Source: Tsukamurella conjunctivitidis (lineage in GTDB: Bacteria > Actinomycetota > Actinomycetes > Mycobacteriales > Mycobacteriaceae). From it: a DNA stretch of 64,000 nt. Shown here in pieces: positions 27,373 through 35,978 of the stretch (positions are counted from its first letter, which is position 1; each line of letters opens with the position of its first letter). Both the position numbers and the translations under genes were made by a program. The DNA lies in assembly GCF_007858475.1 (NCBI RefSeq), contig NZ_VIGX01000004.1, positions 186,001-250,000 on the forward strand, given 5' to 3'. Below the pieces are notes generated by a model. That model was not told where the DNA came from. It worked only from the letters and a program-made list of their open reading frames with translations, and searched no databases.

Positions 27373-27705
27373 GTGACGTACACCATCGCAGAGCCCTGTG
27401 TGGATGTGCTCGACAAGGCATGTATCGAGGAGTGCCCCGTCGACTGTATCTACGAGGGCAACCGGATGCTGTACATCCAGCCCGACGAGTGCGTGGACTG
27501 CGGCGCCTGTGAGCCCGTGTGCCCCGTCGAGGCGATCTTCTACGAGGACGACGTGCCGGACGAGTGGGCCGAGTACGTGACCGCGAACATCGATTTCTTC
27601 AACGAGATCGGTTCGCCCGGCGGTGCCGCCAAGCAGGGGAAGATCGACTACGACCACCCCTTCATCAAGGCGCTCCCGCCGATGAACACCGACACCGAGC
27701 ACTGA
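27373..27705 (+). CDS. fdxC: Seven-iron ferredoxin (FdxA/FdxC)
   Basis: 110 residues. Cluster ligands are C9, C17 and C21 with a displaced Cys (CVDVLDKACIEECPVDC), then CVDCGACEPVCPVEA, the 3Fe-4S plus 4Fe-4S arrangement of actinobacterial FdxA. The acidic C-terminal tail (DDVPDEWAEY) is typical. It is a low-potential electron carrier; its partner is unknown. An AAGGAG Shine-Dalgarno lies 8 nt before GTG 27373. dapC follows 1 nt after its stop, as with Rv1177-Rv1178. Confidence 0.95.
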   Translation: MTYTIAEPCVDVLDKACIEECPVDCIYEGNRMLYIQPDECVDCGACEPVCPVEAIFYEDDVPDEWAEYVTANIDFFNEIGSPGGAAKQGKIDYDHPFIKALPPMNTDTEH

Positions 27706-27706
27706 C

Positions 27707-28807
27707 GTGCCGCGCGTGCCCGTGGCGTCCGGCCTGCCGGACTTTCCCTGGGACACCCTCGCGGACGCGAAGGCGAAGGCCGCCGCGCACGTCGGCGGCA
27801 TCGTCGACCTGTCCGTCGGCACGCCCGTCGATCCGGTGGCCGAGCCGATCCGCCGCGCCCTGTACGAGGGATCCGCGTTCCCCGGTTACCCGGCCACGAT
27901 CGGCACCGTCGCGCTGCGGGAGGCCGCCGCGGCGGCCCTGAGCCGGCGGTACGGCACCGTCGAACTGCCGGAGAGCGCGATCCTGCCCGTGATCGGCACC
28001 AAGGAGGCGATCGCGCAGCTGCCGTCGACGCTGGGGCTCGGCGCGGGGGATGTGGTCGTCATCCCCGAGGTGGCCTACCCGACGTACGAGGTGGGCGCGC
28101 TGCTGGCCGGGGCGCGGCCCGTGCGGGCCGACGGTACCGCCCAGCTCGGCCCGGAGCGCCCGGCGCTCGTCTTCGTGAACTCCCCGTCGAACCCCACCGG
28201 CAAGGTGCTTGGCGTCGACCATCTGCGCAAGGTGGTGCAGTGGGCTCGCGAGCGCGGCGCGATCGTGGCGTCCGACGAGTGCTACCTGGGCCTGGCCTGG
28301 GAGGCCGAGCCGGTCTCGGTGCTCGACCCGCGCGTCTGCGACGGCGACATCACCGGGCTGATCGCGATCCACTCGCTGTCGAAGACGTCGAACCTGGCCT
28401 CCTACCGCGCGGGCTTCCTCGCGGGCGACCCGGCGCTCATCGCCGAGTTGGCCGCGGTGCGCAAGCACGCCGGCGCGATCGTGCCCTTCCCCGTGCAGGC
28501 CGCCATGACCTACGCGCTGTCCGTGGACGAGCACGAGGCCGAGCAGCGCGCCCGCTACGCCGCCCGCCGCGCGGTACTGCTGCAGGCCGTCCGTGGCGCC
28601 GGCTTCACCGTGGACCACTCGGAGGCCGGGCTGTACCTGTGGTCGACGCGGGGAGAGCCCTGCCGCGACACCGTCGACTGGCTGGCTGAGCGGGGCATCC
28701 TCGCCGCACCCGGCGAGTTCTACGGTCCGCAGGGCGCACTGCACGTGCGGATCGCCCTGACCGCGACCGACGAGCGCATCGCCGCCGCCGCCCAGCGCCT
28801 GGCCTGA
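27707..28807 (+). CDS. dapC: N-succinyldiaminopimelate aminotransferase DapC
   Basis: 366 residues, fold-type I PLP aminotransferase. Visible are NSPSNPTGKVLG, SDECYLGLAWE (PLP-binding Asp and Tyr) and HSLSKTSNLASYRAGF with the Schiff-base Lys. It converts N-succinyl-2-amino-6-ketopimelate to N-succinyl-LL-diaminopimelate in lysine and peptidoglycan synthesis; dapD and dapE are at 42-46 kb. Annotation as DapC rests on the fdxC neighbour and mycobacterial synteny. Its stop overlaps the start of the DUF692 gene by 1 nt. Confidence 0.93.
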   Translation: MPRVPVASGLPDFPWDTLADAKAKAAAHVGGIVDLSVGTPVDPVAEPIRRALYEGSAFPGYPATIGTVALREAAAAALSRRYGTVELPESAILPVIGTKEAIAQLPSTLGLGAGDVVVIPEVAYPTYEVGALLAGARPVRADGTAQLGPERPALVFVNSPSNPTGKVLGVDHLRKVVQWARERGAIVASDECYLGLAWEAEPVSVLDPRVCDGDITGLIAIHSLSKTSNLASYRAGFLAGDPALIAELAAVRKHAGAIVPFPVQAAMTYALSVDEHEAEQRARYAARRAVLLQAVRGAGFTVDHSEAGLYLWSTRGEPCRDTVDWLAERGILAAPGEFYGPQGALHVRIALTATDERIAAAAQRLA

Positions 28808-29688
28808 TGGCGATCACCGGTGTCTCGGCCGCATGGCGGCCCGAGCTCGCCGGGATGCTGCTCGACGGTGCGCGGGAGGGCGCCGTCGCCTTCACCGAGA
28901 TCGTGGCGGAGAACGTCGACCCGGCCGGCCTGCCCGACGAGCTCGTGGAACTCGCGCGCCTCGGCGTCACGGTGGTCCCACACGGCGTGACCCTCGGCAT
29001 CGCGGGCGCGGACCTGCCGGATCCCCTCCGAGTCCAGCGTCTCGCCGAGCTCGCCGTGGCGCTGAACGCACCGCTGGTCAGCGAGCACGTCGCGTTCGTC
29101 CGTGCGGGCACCGTCGGGCTGGACGACGAGGCCGGGCCCCACGACGATGTGCTCGAGGCCGGGCACCTGATGCCGGCGCCGCGCACCGCGGAGGCGCTCG
29201 ACGTGCTCGTCGAGAACGTCCGCGCCGCGCAGGCCGCGCTGCCGGTGCCGCTCGCGCTGGAGAACATCGCCGCGCTGTTCGCCTGGCCCGAGGACGGCTA
29301 CGACGAGCCCGCCTACCTGCGGGAACTCGTCGATCGGACGGGCGGGCGCCTGGTCCTCGACCTGGCCAACATCTACGCCTCGTGCACCGCGCGCGGAGCC
29401 GACGCCGCCGCGGAGCTGCGCCGCTATCCGCTGGAGGCCGTCGCCTACGTGCACATCGCGGGCGGCCGCTTCGACGGTGCCCTCTACCTCGACACCCACG
29501 CCGACCCGATATGTCCGGAAGTTCTGGATCTGCTCGCGGTCTGGCGGGATTCACAGCGTTCTCTTGGGCACGTTTCCGCAGGTGGGGAGGCATTGCCCGG
29601 AGTGTTGCTGGAACGAGACGAGTCCGTGATCGAATCCGCCGTCCGGCACGAGATGCTGTGCCTACGAGAGGTTCTCGGGATCGACTGA
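28807..29688 (+). CDS. DUF692/MNIO-family putative multinuclear iron peptide-modifying oxygenase
   Basis: 293 residues, a TIM-barrel protein of the family that includes methanobactin MbnB. Metal-ligand candidates appear in family order: H59 (PHGVTLG), H94 (SEHVAF), E152 (ALENIA), D185 (DLANIY), H216 (VHIAGG), D229 and H231 (DTHADP) and E269 (LLERDE). Family members studied so far use two or three irons and O2 to remodel Cys or other residues in small precursor peptides. The next gene encodes a Ser/Cys-tailed small peptide and the one after a short partner protein, the composition of such systems. Translationally linked to dapC by a 1-nt overlap. The last ~180 bp are visibly less GC-rich. Family assignment is firm; the reaction is inferred. 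Confidence 0.9.
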   Translation: MAITGVSAAWRPELAGMLLDGAREGAVAFTEIVAENVDPAGLPDELVELARLGVTVVPHGVTLGIAGADLPDPLRVQRLAELAVALNAPLVSEHVAFVRAGTVGLDDEAGPHDDVLEAGHLMPAPRTAEALDVLVENVRAAQAALPVPLALENIAALFAWPEDGYDEPAYLRELVDRTGGRLVLDLANIYASCTARGADAAAELRRYPLEAVAYVHIAGGRFDGALYLDTHADPICPEVLDLLAVWRDSQRSLGHVSAGGEALPGVLLERDESVIESAVRHEMLCLREVLGID

Positions 29689-29706
29689 ACGACGAGGCGG
29701 TGCGGG

Positions 29707-29988
29707 ATGGAATTCCTGGTGGTGTTCTTCGTGATCTTCGCAGTGATCGCCGTGTGCGTGTCCATCGCGGGCGGTCAGAACGGTGGTCGGCGGGGCGGGC
29801 GGTCCCGTCGGCGCGGCGGCTCGTCGGGCGACGGCGGCGGTTCGGCCTGGTTCTTCGGCGGTTCCGACGGCGGCTCGCACCACTCGGGCCACGATTCCGG
29901 GTCCAACTGCAGCTCGAGCAGCTGCGGGGGTTCCAGCAGCTGCGGTTCCAGCTCGTCGAGCAGTTCGAGTAGCTGTGGTTCCTCCTGA
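29707..29988 (+). CDS. Membrane-anchored Gly/Ser/Cys-rich small peptide, candidate MNIO substrate
   Basis: 93 residues starting 18 nt after the DUF692 gene. Residues 3-21 form a single membrane helix; a Gly/Arg-rich basic stretch (28-38) follows, then a Gly/Ser/His region (WFFGGSDGGSHHSGHDSG). The tail carries Cys at 68, 73, 79 and 90 separated almost only by Ser and Gly, ending CGSS. This matches the low-complexity Cys/Gly/Ser tails seen on actinobacterial membrane proteins next to DUF692 enzymes (TIGR04222-type, from memory), though the large TIGR04222 domain is missing here. The N-in basic flank suggests the tail may be cytoplasmic, within reach of the enzyme. Substrate status is inference. 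Confidence 0.8.
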   Translation: MEFLVVFFVIFAVIAVCVSIAGGQNGGRRGGRSRRRGGSSGDGGGSAWFFGGSDGGSHHSGHDSGSNCSSSSCGGSSSCGSSSSSSSSSCGSS

Positions 29989-30376
29989 GGTGCGCGACCG
30001 GCTGCGGCGCCGGCAGGCGGCGGTCCTCGAGGACCTGCTCGCCGGCCGGGTACCGCCCGGCGTCGACGCCGCCGGCGCGGCGCTGACCGGCCGGGTCCTC
30101 GCCGTGAAGCGGGCGAACTCGGCGGCCCGCGCCTGTCCGCCGCTGCGCGCGCTCCCGGGCTGGCCGGGTGGCTTCGTCGAGTACGCCGCGAGCCACGCGA
30201 AGGCGGACTGCTCCGCCCACGACGCCCGCGACTACATCGAATGGCTCCGCCGCCACGGAACGACGGCGGAGCGCGCGTGGGTCGCCGTGGAGGCCGTCCG
30301 CAGCGGGGCGCGGCGCTGGTCGCTGGTGCGCGGCCGGCCCGTCGTGCGCGTCGGCACCCGGGTCTTCGGGGCCTGA
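29975..30376 (+). CDS. Small helical partner protein of the DUF692 locus (SCO6045-like)
   Basis: 133 residues from GTG 29975, overlapping the peptide gene by 14 nt; GTG 29990, 1 nt past its stop, is an alternative. The N-terminal half is helical (RDRLRRRQAAVLEDLLAGRVPPG, GRVLAVKRANSAARACPPL), the C-terminal half has YIEWLRRHG and a basic beta tail (SGARRWSLVRGRPVVRVGTRVF). It resembles, from memory, the short proteins beside DUF692 in Streptomyces (SCO6045 type), in the position of MbnC/BufC partners that bring the peptide leader to the enzyme. It ends 4 bp from the convergent pcaD, leaving no space for a terminator. Confidence 0.75.
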   Translation: MVPPEVRDRLRRRQAAVLEDLLAGRVPPGVDAAGAALTGRVLAVKRANSAARACPPLRALPGWPGGFVEYAASHAKADCSAHDARDYIEWLRRHGTTAERAWVAVEAVRSGARRWSLVRGRPVVRVGTRVFGA

Positions 30377-30380
30377 CGCG

Positions 30381-31190
30381 CTACCGAGCGGCTCGGAGGA
30401 AGTTCCCGAGCAGCGGGTCGAACAGCTCGGGTGTCTCCAGCGACGGGCTGTGCCCCGTTCCGGGGAGCACGTGCAGGTCGACGGTGCCGAGCGCCGCGGC
30501 CAGGCCGGCGCCCAGCGTGCCGCCGTCGAAGACGTCCTCGGCTCCCACCACGACCCGTGCGTCGCCGCCGAACGCGCCGGCCGCCGCGCTGAGATCGCGC
30601 CGCGCCGCGCGCCCGCGGAGCGCGGCCGCCGCCCCCGCGGGCGGCGCGGCGGCGATCATCGCGCGAGCCTGGGCGCACACTGCGGGCCGGGTCGCGACGG
30701 TCGTCGGCCCGAGAACGGCGGGCAGGAACTCCTCGCCGTAGCGCGCCGTGCCCTCGGTTTCGAGACGATCCGCCAGGGACAGCCGCGCGGTACGGACCTC
30801 GGGAGTATCGAGACCGGCGAAGGTGTCGCTGAGCAGGAGCCGTTCGAGCCGCGGTCCGGCCAGGTCCGCGAGCTCGAGCGCCACCTGGCCGCCCATCGAA
30901 TAACCGACGCCCGCGAAGCGCTCGGCGCCGAGCAGGTCCAGGACGTCGATCGCCGCCTCCGCATGGTGATGCAGCGCGATCTCGCCGCCGCTCGCCACGG
31001 GCGCGGTGTCGCCGAAGCCGAGAAGGTCGATCGCCACACCCCGGAAGCCGCTGTCCGCCAGGGCGTTCAGCTGCGGCGCCCACATCGCGCGGGAGAAGAG
31101 GAAGCCGTGCAGCAGGAGCACCGTCGGACCGTCGCCCGCGACGGTCGCGCCGACGGGGCCGTGACGGGTGTCGAGGACCTGCTCAGCCAT
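30381..31190 (-). CDS. pcaD: 3-oxoadipate enol-lactonase (PcaD-like alpha/beta hydrolase)
   Basis: 269 residues, alpha/beta hydrolase fold: LLLHGFLFSRAMW (oxyanion region), nucleophile elbow GVGYSMGGQ with Ser, Asp in GAEDVFDG, and His in LPGTGHSPSLE. General hydrolase motifs do not fix the substrate, but it is the last gene of a catBAC operon, overlapping catC by 8 nt. It therefore most likely hydrolyses beta-ketoadipate enol-lactone to beta-ketoadipate, the step after CatC. No succinyl-CoA transferase or thiolase follows in this window. Confidence 0.82.
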   Translation of the reverse strand: MAEQVLDTRHGPVGATVAGDGPTVLLLHGFLFSRAMWAPQLNALADSGFRGVAIDLLGFGDTAPVASGGEIALHHHAEAAIDVLDLLGAERFAGVGYSMGGQVALELADLAGPRLERLLLSDTFAGLDTPEVRTARLSLADRLETEGTARYGEEFLPAVLGPTTVATRPAVCAQARAMIAAAPPAGAAAALRGRAARRDLSAAAGAFGGDARVVVGAEDVFDGGTLGAGLAAALGTVDLHVLPGTGHSPSLETPELFDPLLGNFLRAAR

Positions 31191-31472
31191 CGAGCGCGAC
31201 GTCCGACGGATGGCCGGCGAGGGGAGTGACCACGACCGTCATCCACTTGAACAGCGGCAGGCCCCAGAGGATCTCGTGCAGCCGTTCGTTGTCGGCGACG
31301 TCGAAGATCGAGATGTTGGAGTACTGGCCGACGACGCGCCAGATGTGCACCCACTCGCCGCCGCGCTGCAGCTCCTGACTGTAGGCCTTCTCGGTGGCGA
31401 TGGCCTCGGCGCGCACCGCGGGGTCCACGTCGTCGGGGATGGCCACGTCCATGCGCACCGCGTAGAGCGCCA

Positions 31473-31473
<1 letters not shown>
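31183..31473 (-). CDS. catC: Muconolactone delta-isomerase
   Basis: 96 residues, normal CatC length. MALYAVRMDVAIPDDVD, EKAYSQELQRGGEWVHIWRV and SNISIFDVADNERLHEILWGLPLF follow the family throughout, including the conserved Glu and His of the decameric isomerase. It converts muconolactone to 3-oxoadipate enol-lactone. ATG 31473 overlaps the catA stop codon by one base. Confidence 0.96.
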
Positions 31474-33488
<2,015 letters not shown>

Positions 33489-33492
<4 letters not shown>

Positions 33493-34394
33493 GCCGCGGT
33501 CCCCCGTTCGGCGGTGAGGTCGGCCCCGCCCAGCGCATCGAGGACGCGGGCGAGGAGGGGCGAGTCGTCGTCGGCGCGCCAGGCGAGGGCGAGCTCGACG
33601 CTCTCGGTGTCCGGCAGGTCCACGAAGTGCACGCCGGGGAGCTGAATGGAACTGGCCGTGTGGGGCACCAGGGCGATCCCCAGTCCCGCCGCCACGAGCG
33701 CGAGCAGGGTGGAGGTCTGCGGCACCTGGTGCGCGCGACGCGGGGTGAACCCGGCGGCCGCGCAGGTCCGGACCACGGCACCGTCGACGACGGAGCCGGT
33801 GTCGGCCGGGTAGGTCACGAAGTCCTCGTCCTGGAGGTCGGCGACGGTGACCGCGGGGTCACCGTCGAACCGGTGGCCCTGCGGCAGGGCGAGGATCAGC
33901 GGCTCCGCGAAGAGCGTGCGGTGTGCGATGCCCTCGACGGCGACGGGGGTGCGCAGCAGCGCGATGTCGAGCCGGCCGTCGGTGAGGGCCGCGGCCTGGA
34001 GCGGCGTCAGCATCTCGGTGTCGATGGTGAGCTCGACGTCGGGGAGGGCCGCCTTCACGCGGCGCACCACGCGGGGGAGCACGCCGTACGAGGCCGATCC
34101 GGTCACGCCGACGCGCAGGACACCGCTCGCGCCCTGCCCGATCAGCCGGGCACGGTCGACGGCGCCGTCGAGCTCGGCGAGGATGCGGTGGACCTCGGCG
34201 GCGAAGACCCGCCCGGCCTCGGTGAGCTCGACCTGGCGGGTGGTGCGCGCGAAGAGCGGGGTCCCGAGGGAGGCCTCGAGCTGTCGCACGGTGCGCGACA
34301 GGGCGGGGCCGGCGATGTGCAGCCCGTCCGCGGCGCGACCGAAGTGCTCGGTCTGCGCGACGGCCAGGAACTGGCGCAGGTGCCGCAGCTCCAT
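33489..34394 (-). CDS. catR: LysR-family regulator of the cat genes
   Basis: 301 residues from ATG 34394, preceded by a GAGGAG Shine-Dalgarno 6 nt away; an upstream in-frame start lacks one. The N-terminal winged helix (MELRHLRQFLAVAQTEHFGR, GLHIAGPALSRTVRQLEASLG) and a LysR substrate domain (PDVELTIDTEM, DGRLDIALLRTP) are clear. Effectors for such regulators are usually muconate or benzoate. Unusually for the CatR type it is not divergent from catBAC but the first gene of that operon; it is divergent from benA, so it may control both directions. Confidence 0.88.
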
Positions 34395-34601
34395 GACGTC
34401 CTCCTCACTGATCGATGTGATGTGCATCTCACGGTAGGAGCACCGATTCGGAAAGACCAGGACCTATTCGTTCGAAATTGATGCCTGAAACGTAATAAAG
34501 ACACCCTGGTGGGTTGCTAGCGATATGCCCGGCGCGCGGGAGCGGCTCCGCGCGCGACGGTGATGGGGATCACAGCCATCCAGCCGACCGGAGGTCTCCC
34601 G
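34395..34601. promoter_or_regulatory. Divergent cat/ben promoter region
   Basis: 207 bp between catR and benA, with an A/T-rich core at 34440-34520 that contrasts with the surroundings. A T-N11-A site (TATTCGTTCGAAA, 34465-34477) containing TTCGAA fits a loose LysR box. GGAGGT at 34590-34595 is the benA ribosome-binding site. Control by CatR and by the LuxR-type regulator downstream of ben is likely; exact sites are not resolved. Confidence 0.5.
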
Positions 34602-35978
34602 ATGACCGTCACCGAACCCTCGCCCACCCCGCCCGCGGACGTGCTCGACCACGCGATCGACGAGCGTCCCGCGGACGGCGTATACCGCGTCAACCGCAAC
34701 ATCTTCACCGACGAGGAGACCTTCGAACTGGAGATGCGGTACATCTTCGAGGGCAACTGGGTCTACCTCGCGCACGAGAGCCAGGTCCCGGAGCCGGGCG
34801 ACTACTACACCACGTACATCGGCCGGCAGCCCGTGGTGATCACCCGCGGCACCGACGGCGGGCTGAACCTGCTCATCAACGCCTGCGCGCACCGCGGCGC
34901 CATGCTGTGCCGGAAGAAGACCGACAACCGCAAGACCCTGACCTGCCCGTTCCACGGCTGGACCTTCCGCAACGACGGCCGCCTGCTCAAGGTCAAGGAC
35001 CCGGACGGTGCCGGGTACCCGGCCCAGTTCGACACCGAGGGCAGCCACGACCTGACCCGGGTCGCGCAGTTCGGGAACTACCGCGGTTTCCTGTTCGGCT
35101 CGCTGAACCCGGACGTGCTGCCGCTCGAGGAGCACCTCGGCGACACCACGACCATCATCGACATGCTGGTGGACCAGTCGCCCGACGGACTCGAGGTGCT
35201 CCGCGGCGCCTCCACCTACACCTACGACGGCAACTGGAAGGTGCAGGCGGAGAACGGCGCCGACGGCTACCACGTGACCGCCACGCATTGGAACTACGCG
35301 GCCACCACCAGTCGCCGCACCACGGGCGACTCCGGCAACACCACCAAGACCCTGGACGCCGGGCAGTGGGGCAAGTCGGGCGGCGGGTACTGGTCGTACC
35401 CGAACGGGCACCTGTGCCTGTGGACCTGGGCCGGCAATCCGCAGGACCGCCCCCTGTGGGACCGCATGGACGAGCTCAAGGAGCAGTTCGGTGAGGCCAA
35501 GGGCGACTTCATGGTCCGCGGGTCCCGCAACCTGTGCCTGTACCCGAACGTCTACCTCATGGACCAGTTCTCCACGCAGATCCGGCACTTCCGCCCGATC
35601 AGCGTGGACAAGACCGAGGTGACCATCTACTGCATCGCCCCGAAGGGCGAGTCGAAGGCGAACCGGGCCTGGCGGATCCGCCAGTACGAGGACTTCTTCA
35701 ACGCCTCGGGAATGGCGACACCGGACGATCTCGAGGAGTTCCGAAGCTGCCAGAAGACCTTCCTCGCGACCGCCGCGCAGTGGAACGACATGAGCCGCGG
35801 CGCGGAGCACTGGCTCACCGGCCCGGACGAGGTCGCGACCGTGCTCGGCATGACCGGCGTCGTCTCCTCCGGCGTCAAGAACGAGGACGAGGGGCTCTAT
35901 CCCGTGCAGCACAAGTACTGGCAGGAGACCCTCCAGGCCGGCCTGGCCGCCGACGCCGCGAAGGGGGGCGTCCGATGA
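34602..35978 (+). CDS. benA: Benzoate 1,2-dioxygenase, alpha (Rieske) subunit
   Basis: 458 residues, very close to BenA along the whole length ([33 protein letters not shown]). Rieske ligands are NACAHRGAM (CxH) and TCPFHGWTF (CxxH). The mononuclear iron site is in [17 protein letters not shown] (Asp and two His). With BenB and the reductase it dihydroxylates benzoate to the 1,2-cis-diol carboxylate. A GGAGGT Shine-Dalgarno is 6 nt before ATG 34602. It overlaps benB by ATGA. Confidence 0.97.

Follow-up and report, generated by a model that had tools for sequence, protein, structure and literature searches.

This analysis concerns three adjoining genes in a 64,000-nucleotide stretch of the genome of Tsukamurella conjunctivitidis (contig NZ_VIGX01000004.1, positions 186,001 to 250,000; the whole stretch is referred to here as the window), which encode an MNIO (DUF692) enzyme, a small putative precursor peptide with a Cys-containing tail, and a partner protein (Table 1). 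An earlier reading of the DNA, the original prediction, had proposed them as a new peptide-modification locus, and the coordinates it gave, together with the positions (68, 73, 79 and 90) and spacing of the tail Cys residues, the 18-nt gap between the MNIO stop codon and the peptide start, and the overlap of the peptide and partner genes, were all confirmed from the sequence. This overlap is 14 nt long, and the stop codon of dapC overlaps the ATG of the MNIO gene (TGATG, 28805-28809). The five genes from fdxA to the partner gene all lie on the + strand, with the last four joined by overlaps or the 18-nt gap. As judged by sequence comparison, the three genes are a real, selected unit. Both the peptide and the partner are annotated as hypothetical proteins in the relative Tsukamurella tyrosinosolvens, and a scan of the MNIO, peptide and partner against PHROGs matched no family.

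Table 1. Features of the MNIO locus and its upstream neighbours (positions in the window)
Feature	Coordinates	Strand	Basis or remark
MNIO (DUF692) enzyme, 293 aa	28807..29688	+	Pfam PF05114, 185.6 bits
Putative precursor peptide, 93 aa	29707..29988	+	One N-terminal membrane helix, Ser/Gly/Cys/His tail
Predicted membrane helix of peptide, residues 4-20	29716..29766	+	Hydropathy
Arg-rich stretch just past helix, residues 28-36	29788..29814	+	Charge count
His/Ser/Gly/Cys tail of peptide, residues 58-93	29878..29985	+	Orthologue alignment
Partner protein, 133 aa, GTG start	29975..30376	+	Homology to MNIO-adjacent and MNIO-fused proteins
dapC, succinyldiaminopimelate transaminase	27707..28807	+	TIGR03539, 578 bits, above cut-off
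fdxA, ferredoxin	27373..27705	+	NF045480, 187 bits, above cut-off; upstream neighbour, not regarded as part of the mechanism

The enzyme scores far above the Pfam gathering cut-off of 25 bits for PF05114, and it has both the TIM-barrel fold and the conserved His/Asp/Asn/Glu set of an MNIO, with H59, H94, E152, D185, N188, H216, D229, H231 and E269 invariant in 13 sequences. Its assignment to DUF692, with ligand-type positions in place, therefore stands. The genome that contains the window (G000) has a second MNIO (C321:138037-138810, L045) beside a TIGR04222-type Cys-tailed membrane protein, and thus both of the kinds of MNIO locus described below coexist in it.

MNIO genes were sought in samples drawn from the family (301 genomes) and the order (298 genomes), and matches were found in 84 and 107 genomes, respectively. 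The surroundings of 102 loci, representing 98 distinct enzymes, were scanned, and the loci fall into two types, with L104, L118, L013 and L014 placed in neither. In type A, a Cys-tailed protein with 3-5 detected helices, matched by the TIGR04222 model at loci of this type, has its end within 120 nt of the MNIO start (57 of the 67 loci). In type B, to which the window belongs, one or two small one-helix Cys-tailed peptides adjoin the MNIO and the partner. The 31 type-B loci correspond to 27 distinct ones (the duplicated Tsukamurella loci are L003/L046, L004/L048, L005/L050 and L006/L020), found in 11 Tsukamurella genomes, six records of a Mycobacteroides group that includes two Mycobacterium sp. 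records (L008 and L009), eight genomes of the genus g11, and one each of the genera g13 and g34, the last from another family. No TIGR04222 match occurred at a type-B locus in the 27 genomes searched, 20 of which have such a locus, the matches lying solely at other loci, and none was found in the six Mycobacteroides-group genomes. A peptide with at least three tail Cys is present at 23 of the 27 distinct type-B loci, and the conservation in related genera on which the original prediction had staked itself was thus found.

In a quick tree of 98 enzymes, supported by SH-aLRT values only, the 27 type-B enzymes form a single clade (SH-aLRT 100). When nine class-level enzymes were added (107 rows), the smallest clade containing the 27 also took in L184 and L185, with a support of 60; L062, L107, L053, L104, L184, L185 and L198 are on long branches in these trees. 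Two further loci, L198 and L104 (the latter on a short contig and a long branch), have one-helix Cys-tail peptides beside the MNIO and were left out of group B. As they fall outside the clade of the window enzyme, the sequences suggest that the one-helix arrangement was gained or lost more than once. One-helix peptides beside an MNIO and partner also reach beyond the order (L184 and L198).

The peptide of the window includes Cys 17 within the helix in addition to the four Cys of the tail. His 58, 59 and 62 and all four tail Cys are invariant in seven Tsukamurella orthologues of the window type, despite indels around them, and the ratio of non-synonymous to synonymous substitution rates (dN/dS) between the window peptide and the six other orthologues of its type is approximately 0.15-0.31 (L005, L051, L052 and L053, whose peptides are of another type or have paralogues, were left out), indicating that it is under purifying selection. 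Type-B peptides are 75-123 aa long, apart from four of 55 aa, and one helix was detected in every Cys-tailed type-B open reading frame (ORF) listed. Of the 156 tail Cys in the 36 distinct peptides, 106 precede a Gly, 48 precede a Ser and 2 are the last residue of the protein, as expected for such a tail. Two Cys-tail peptides are encoded at two Tsukamurella loci and at all eight g11 loci (L051, L052 and L054-L061), and this doubling fits what is expected of a precursor.

An ORF filter (small, N-terminal helix, Ser/Gly tail, at least three Cys) applied to both strands of the window was passed by this peptide alone. The linked one-helix Cys-tailed peptide of the original prediction was thus borne out. 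Over the surveyed loci (755,610 bases), the same filter was passed by 87 ORFs lying no more than about 1.3 kb from an MNIO gene and by one lying farther off. Parts of larger TIGR04222-type proteins, from their C-terminal ends, and four loci counted twice are among the 87, and the near-MNIO zone is itself a large share of each surveyed locus. A chance origin of the whole arrangement was rejected on these counts. The window peptide matched no NCBIfam family above its cut-off, and TIGR04222 gave no match at E <= 10 to any of eight peptides. Residues 1-56 do resemble PF25184, a YxzE-like putative bacteriocin family (E 1e-4), and matches at E <= 0.001 occur in 4/21 genomes, which might point to an unmodified bacteriocin-like or low-complexity membrane peptide. 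However, the score of 23.7 bits falls short of the cut-off of 40, none of the 21 genomes has a match above this cut-off, and the linkage to the MNIO would be left unexplained, and we regard this explanation as highly improbable. PF25184 also matches in Bacillus subtilis, a species that does not figure among the control genomes with a PF05114 match.

The partner protein was likewise borne out, as it is homologous to short proteins that follow the MNIO in TIGR04222 clusters and to a domain fused to the MNIO in other actinobacteria. Every one of the 27 distinct type-B loci has a partner gene after the MNIO, as do 34 of the 67 type-A loci. The fusion was examined at 28 partner loci (L184-L211) of 51 places, the window and one Tsukamurella locus being left out of a set of 30, and partner and MNIO share a single open frame at 19 of these class-level loci (L186, L188-L197, L200, L201, L204 and L206-L210), 18 of them from one genus (g116). 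The original prediction had suggested a comparison with MbnC/BufC-type families. No Pfam family matched the partner at E <= 1, and a search of the PDB with the partner profile gave a single match, to a terpene synthase (E 0.19), judged to be due to chance. An AlphaFold2 model (pLDDT 83.4) consists of helices only, and its best structural match is MbnC, which heads a list of structures that does not contain NGO1945 or TglI, the examples of a DUF2063-like/RRE-like fold. The lack of any Pfam match means that there is no DUF2063 signature, and the partner thus has two features of a PME-type-2 protein, namely a position adjoining the MNIO and no such signature.

Among 16 Tsukamurella genomes, the MNIO, peptide and partner are all present in 11 and none of them was found in the remaining five. 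When these five were searched with a type-B peptide profile, the sole match was a weak one in G137, and the protein concerned is unrelated and has no Cys tail; in the window genome the profile matched the local peptide alone. The hydrolase gene located downstream of the unit in the window comes immediately after dapC in G137, and hence the three genes are missing there as a block; other sequence follows dapC in G070, G158 and G188. An intact dapC is retained in four of the five genomes, and the fifth, G198, which is in 890 contigs, gave no dapC orthologue. The genes fdxA and dapC precede the unit in the Tsukamurella, g11 and g13 loci, and neither was detected in the 10.8-kb stretches around the unit in Mycobacteroides. 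Thus, though the locus does overlap dapC, to which the original prediction described it as coupled, the link looks positional, and a functional coupling to lysine biosynthesis was rejected. Downstream of the unit in the window (30381-35978) is a benzoate/catechol degradation cluster encoding a PcaD-like hydrolase (sub-threshold), a catechol 1,2-dioxygenase (TIGR02438, 482 bits), a muconate cycloisomerase family protein (sub-threshold), a LysR regulator and the BenA benzoate dioxygenase large subunit (TIGR03229, 802 bits).

On balance, we consider it somewhat more likely than not that the three genes act as a single unit whose product is a modified peptide tethered to the membrane, with a soft-metal-binding tail on the cytoplasmic side. 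The 93-aa peptide would insert via its single N-terminal helix, so that the N-terminus is probably outside and the Ser/Gly/Cys/His tail cytoplasmic. The 133-aa partner, MbnC-like or PME-type-2-like, would hold or present the anchored peptide and support the MNIO. This enzyme, using O2 and a cluster of non-haem iron, would oxidise the Cys of the tail, its candidate substrate, and thiooxazole-type or related sulfur groups are the most likely products. Once modified, the tail could bind a soft metal such as copper. The sequences establish the enzyme family, the homology of the partner, the linkage and joint loss of the genes, and the retention of tail Cys in most members, and from these the substrate, chemistry, topology and metal role are inferred. 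The proposed oxidation is modelled on HvfBC, which makes 5-thiooxazoles on HvfA, and on MbnBC, which makes the oxazolone and thioamide groups of methanobactin (PMC13419390).

Some observations weigh against this proposal. Four of the six Mycobacteroides-group peptides (L008, L009, L010 and L012, which make up one subclade) are the 55-aa forms, encoded after the partner gene, and have 1, 1, 0 and 1 tail Cys, respectively; in L007 and L011, the sister loci, the peptides have 5 and 4. The MNIO and partner of the four Cys-poor loci are still constrained (dN/dS 0.07-0.13), and the MNIO keeps its invariant positions. L185 has an MNIO and partner, and no Cys-tail ORF was seen in the stretch examined. 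This loss of Cys beside a retained MNIO and partner weakens the modification reading of the original prediction, and would be in keeping with an MNIO and partner that act on another substrate, the Cys-tailed protein being a separate linked membrane peptide or one of several substrates. Nevertheless, the Mycobacteroides-group genomes with Cys-poor peptides have one MNIO each, whole-genome searches of the group revealed no second recognisable precursor, neither another such peptide nor a TIGR04222 protein, and in Tsukamurella the peptide and MNIO are present or missing together, so that we rate a different substrate as a poor prospect. For the Cys-poor loci themselves, either a single Cys (or another residue) suffices or the MNIO has a further substrate. 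Two genes at L007 (481-2272) and L010 (552-2311), which lie some 3-4 kb before the MNIO, look like an iron-dependent repressor gene and a sigma-factor gene.

The side of the membrane on which the tail lies was considered from the charges that flank the helix, as a positively charged flank stays cytoplasmic (the positive-inside rule). The helix is near the N-terminus in all 36 distinct type-B peptides (one spurious 53-aa ORF was removed before counting), and all 36 have more positive charge on its C-side than on its N-side. There are 2-10 positive residues in the 25 residues past the helix and none before it in 35 peptides (two in the other), though the starts were set by script to the ATG nearest the helix, which biases them to short N-terminal flanks. 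In the case of the window peptide, the sequence allows no start before 29707. By the positive-inside rule, this pattern predicts an N-out/C-in orientation with a cytoplasmic tail. The window peptide also has no positive N-region and is Arg-rich past the helix, as judged by charge count. Display of the tail at the surface, as put forward in the original prediction, was accordingly dropped as the default.

The same features could be those of a stripped-down TIGR04222-type system with the same chemistry, in which the modified tail would come to lie on the outer side of the membrane, the location proposed for the TIGR04222 proteins and for bufferins. The tails are alike, the partners are homologous to those of TIGR04222 clusters, TIGR04222 tails are read as extracytoplasmic in PMC12452194, and by eye the end of the helix in Tsukamurella (S-I-A or S-A-A) resembles a signal-peptidase site. 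The charge pattern reverses that of an export signal, but this argument is limited, as the same measure splits 57 type-A proteins 27 to 30. Those with 4-5 detected helices point outward in 27 of 29 cases and those with three point inward in 28 of 28; in these three-helix proteins a weak final helix probably escaped detection. Hence, the crude measure does not cleanly separate types A and B, and the contrast in topology is suggestive, not proven. An external tail seems to us somewhat unlikely, and we retain the cytoplasmic tail as the predicted arrangement.

A locus of this kind is not new, contrary to the original prediction. According to Antoine et al. (2025, PMC12452194), clusters of a TIGR04222 membrane protein, an MNIO and a PME-type-2 protein, with Ser/Gly/Cys tails and short partners, occur in Actinomycetota, and the chemistry and role of these systems are stated to be open. 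The window unit shares with them a related MNIO, a Ser/Gly-rich C-terminal Cys tail, a membrane protein as substrate candidate and a short partner without DUF2063. Type-B loci differ in that their peptides are not matched by TIGR04222, have one detected helix rather than 3-5, are much shorter than the approximately 300 aa of the TIGR04222 proteins, and are usually encoded after the MNIO. The 'very small proteins' of adjamnio-V (PMC12452194, Fig. S3), going by their description, share the small size and the place right after the MNIO, and the window peptide may belong to this group. This possible overlap aside, no description of one-helix MNIO peptides was found in listings and abstract openings on MNIO/DUF692, TIGR04222 and bufferins or in passages of PMC13174530, and no paper was found there that names DUF692 together with Tsukamurella or Mycobacteroides. 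The new point is the charge pattern that predicts a cytoplasmic tail. If the proposal is correct, the unit would offer a very small and tractable form of the MNIO systems that involve membrane proteins in actinobacteria, and the natural Mycobacteroides-group peptides with 0-1 tail Cys would provide a built-in test of the MNIO substrate.

Like its relatives BufB and HvfB of the bufferin and oxazolin systems, the window MNIO is accompanied by a Cys-bearing precursor candidate, but at 135.7 bits it lies below the cut-off of 310 for the BufB equivalog NF050167, the peptide has no Sec-like positive N-region and the partner has no DUF2063. It also scores below the cut-off for MbnB of the methanobactin MbnB-MbnC pair (TIGR04159, 33 bits against 325), and here the candidate precursor is a membrane-anchored Cys-tail peptide. 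It is possible, if rather doubtful, that the MNIO product is never exported, and that a one-helix N-out/C-in peptide holds its modified Cys/His tail as a fixed metal ligand at the inner membrane face, the opposite of what applies to bufferins and oxazolin and is proposed for the TIGR04222 proteins. An anchored product of this kind, facing the cytoplasm, would put a metal ligand of the ribosomally synthesised and post-translationally modified peptide (RiPP) type in a location that is new for such ligands.

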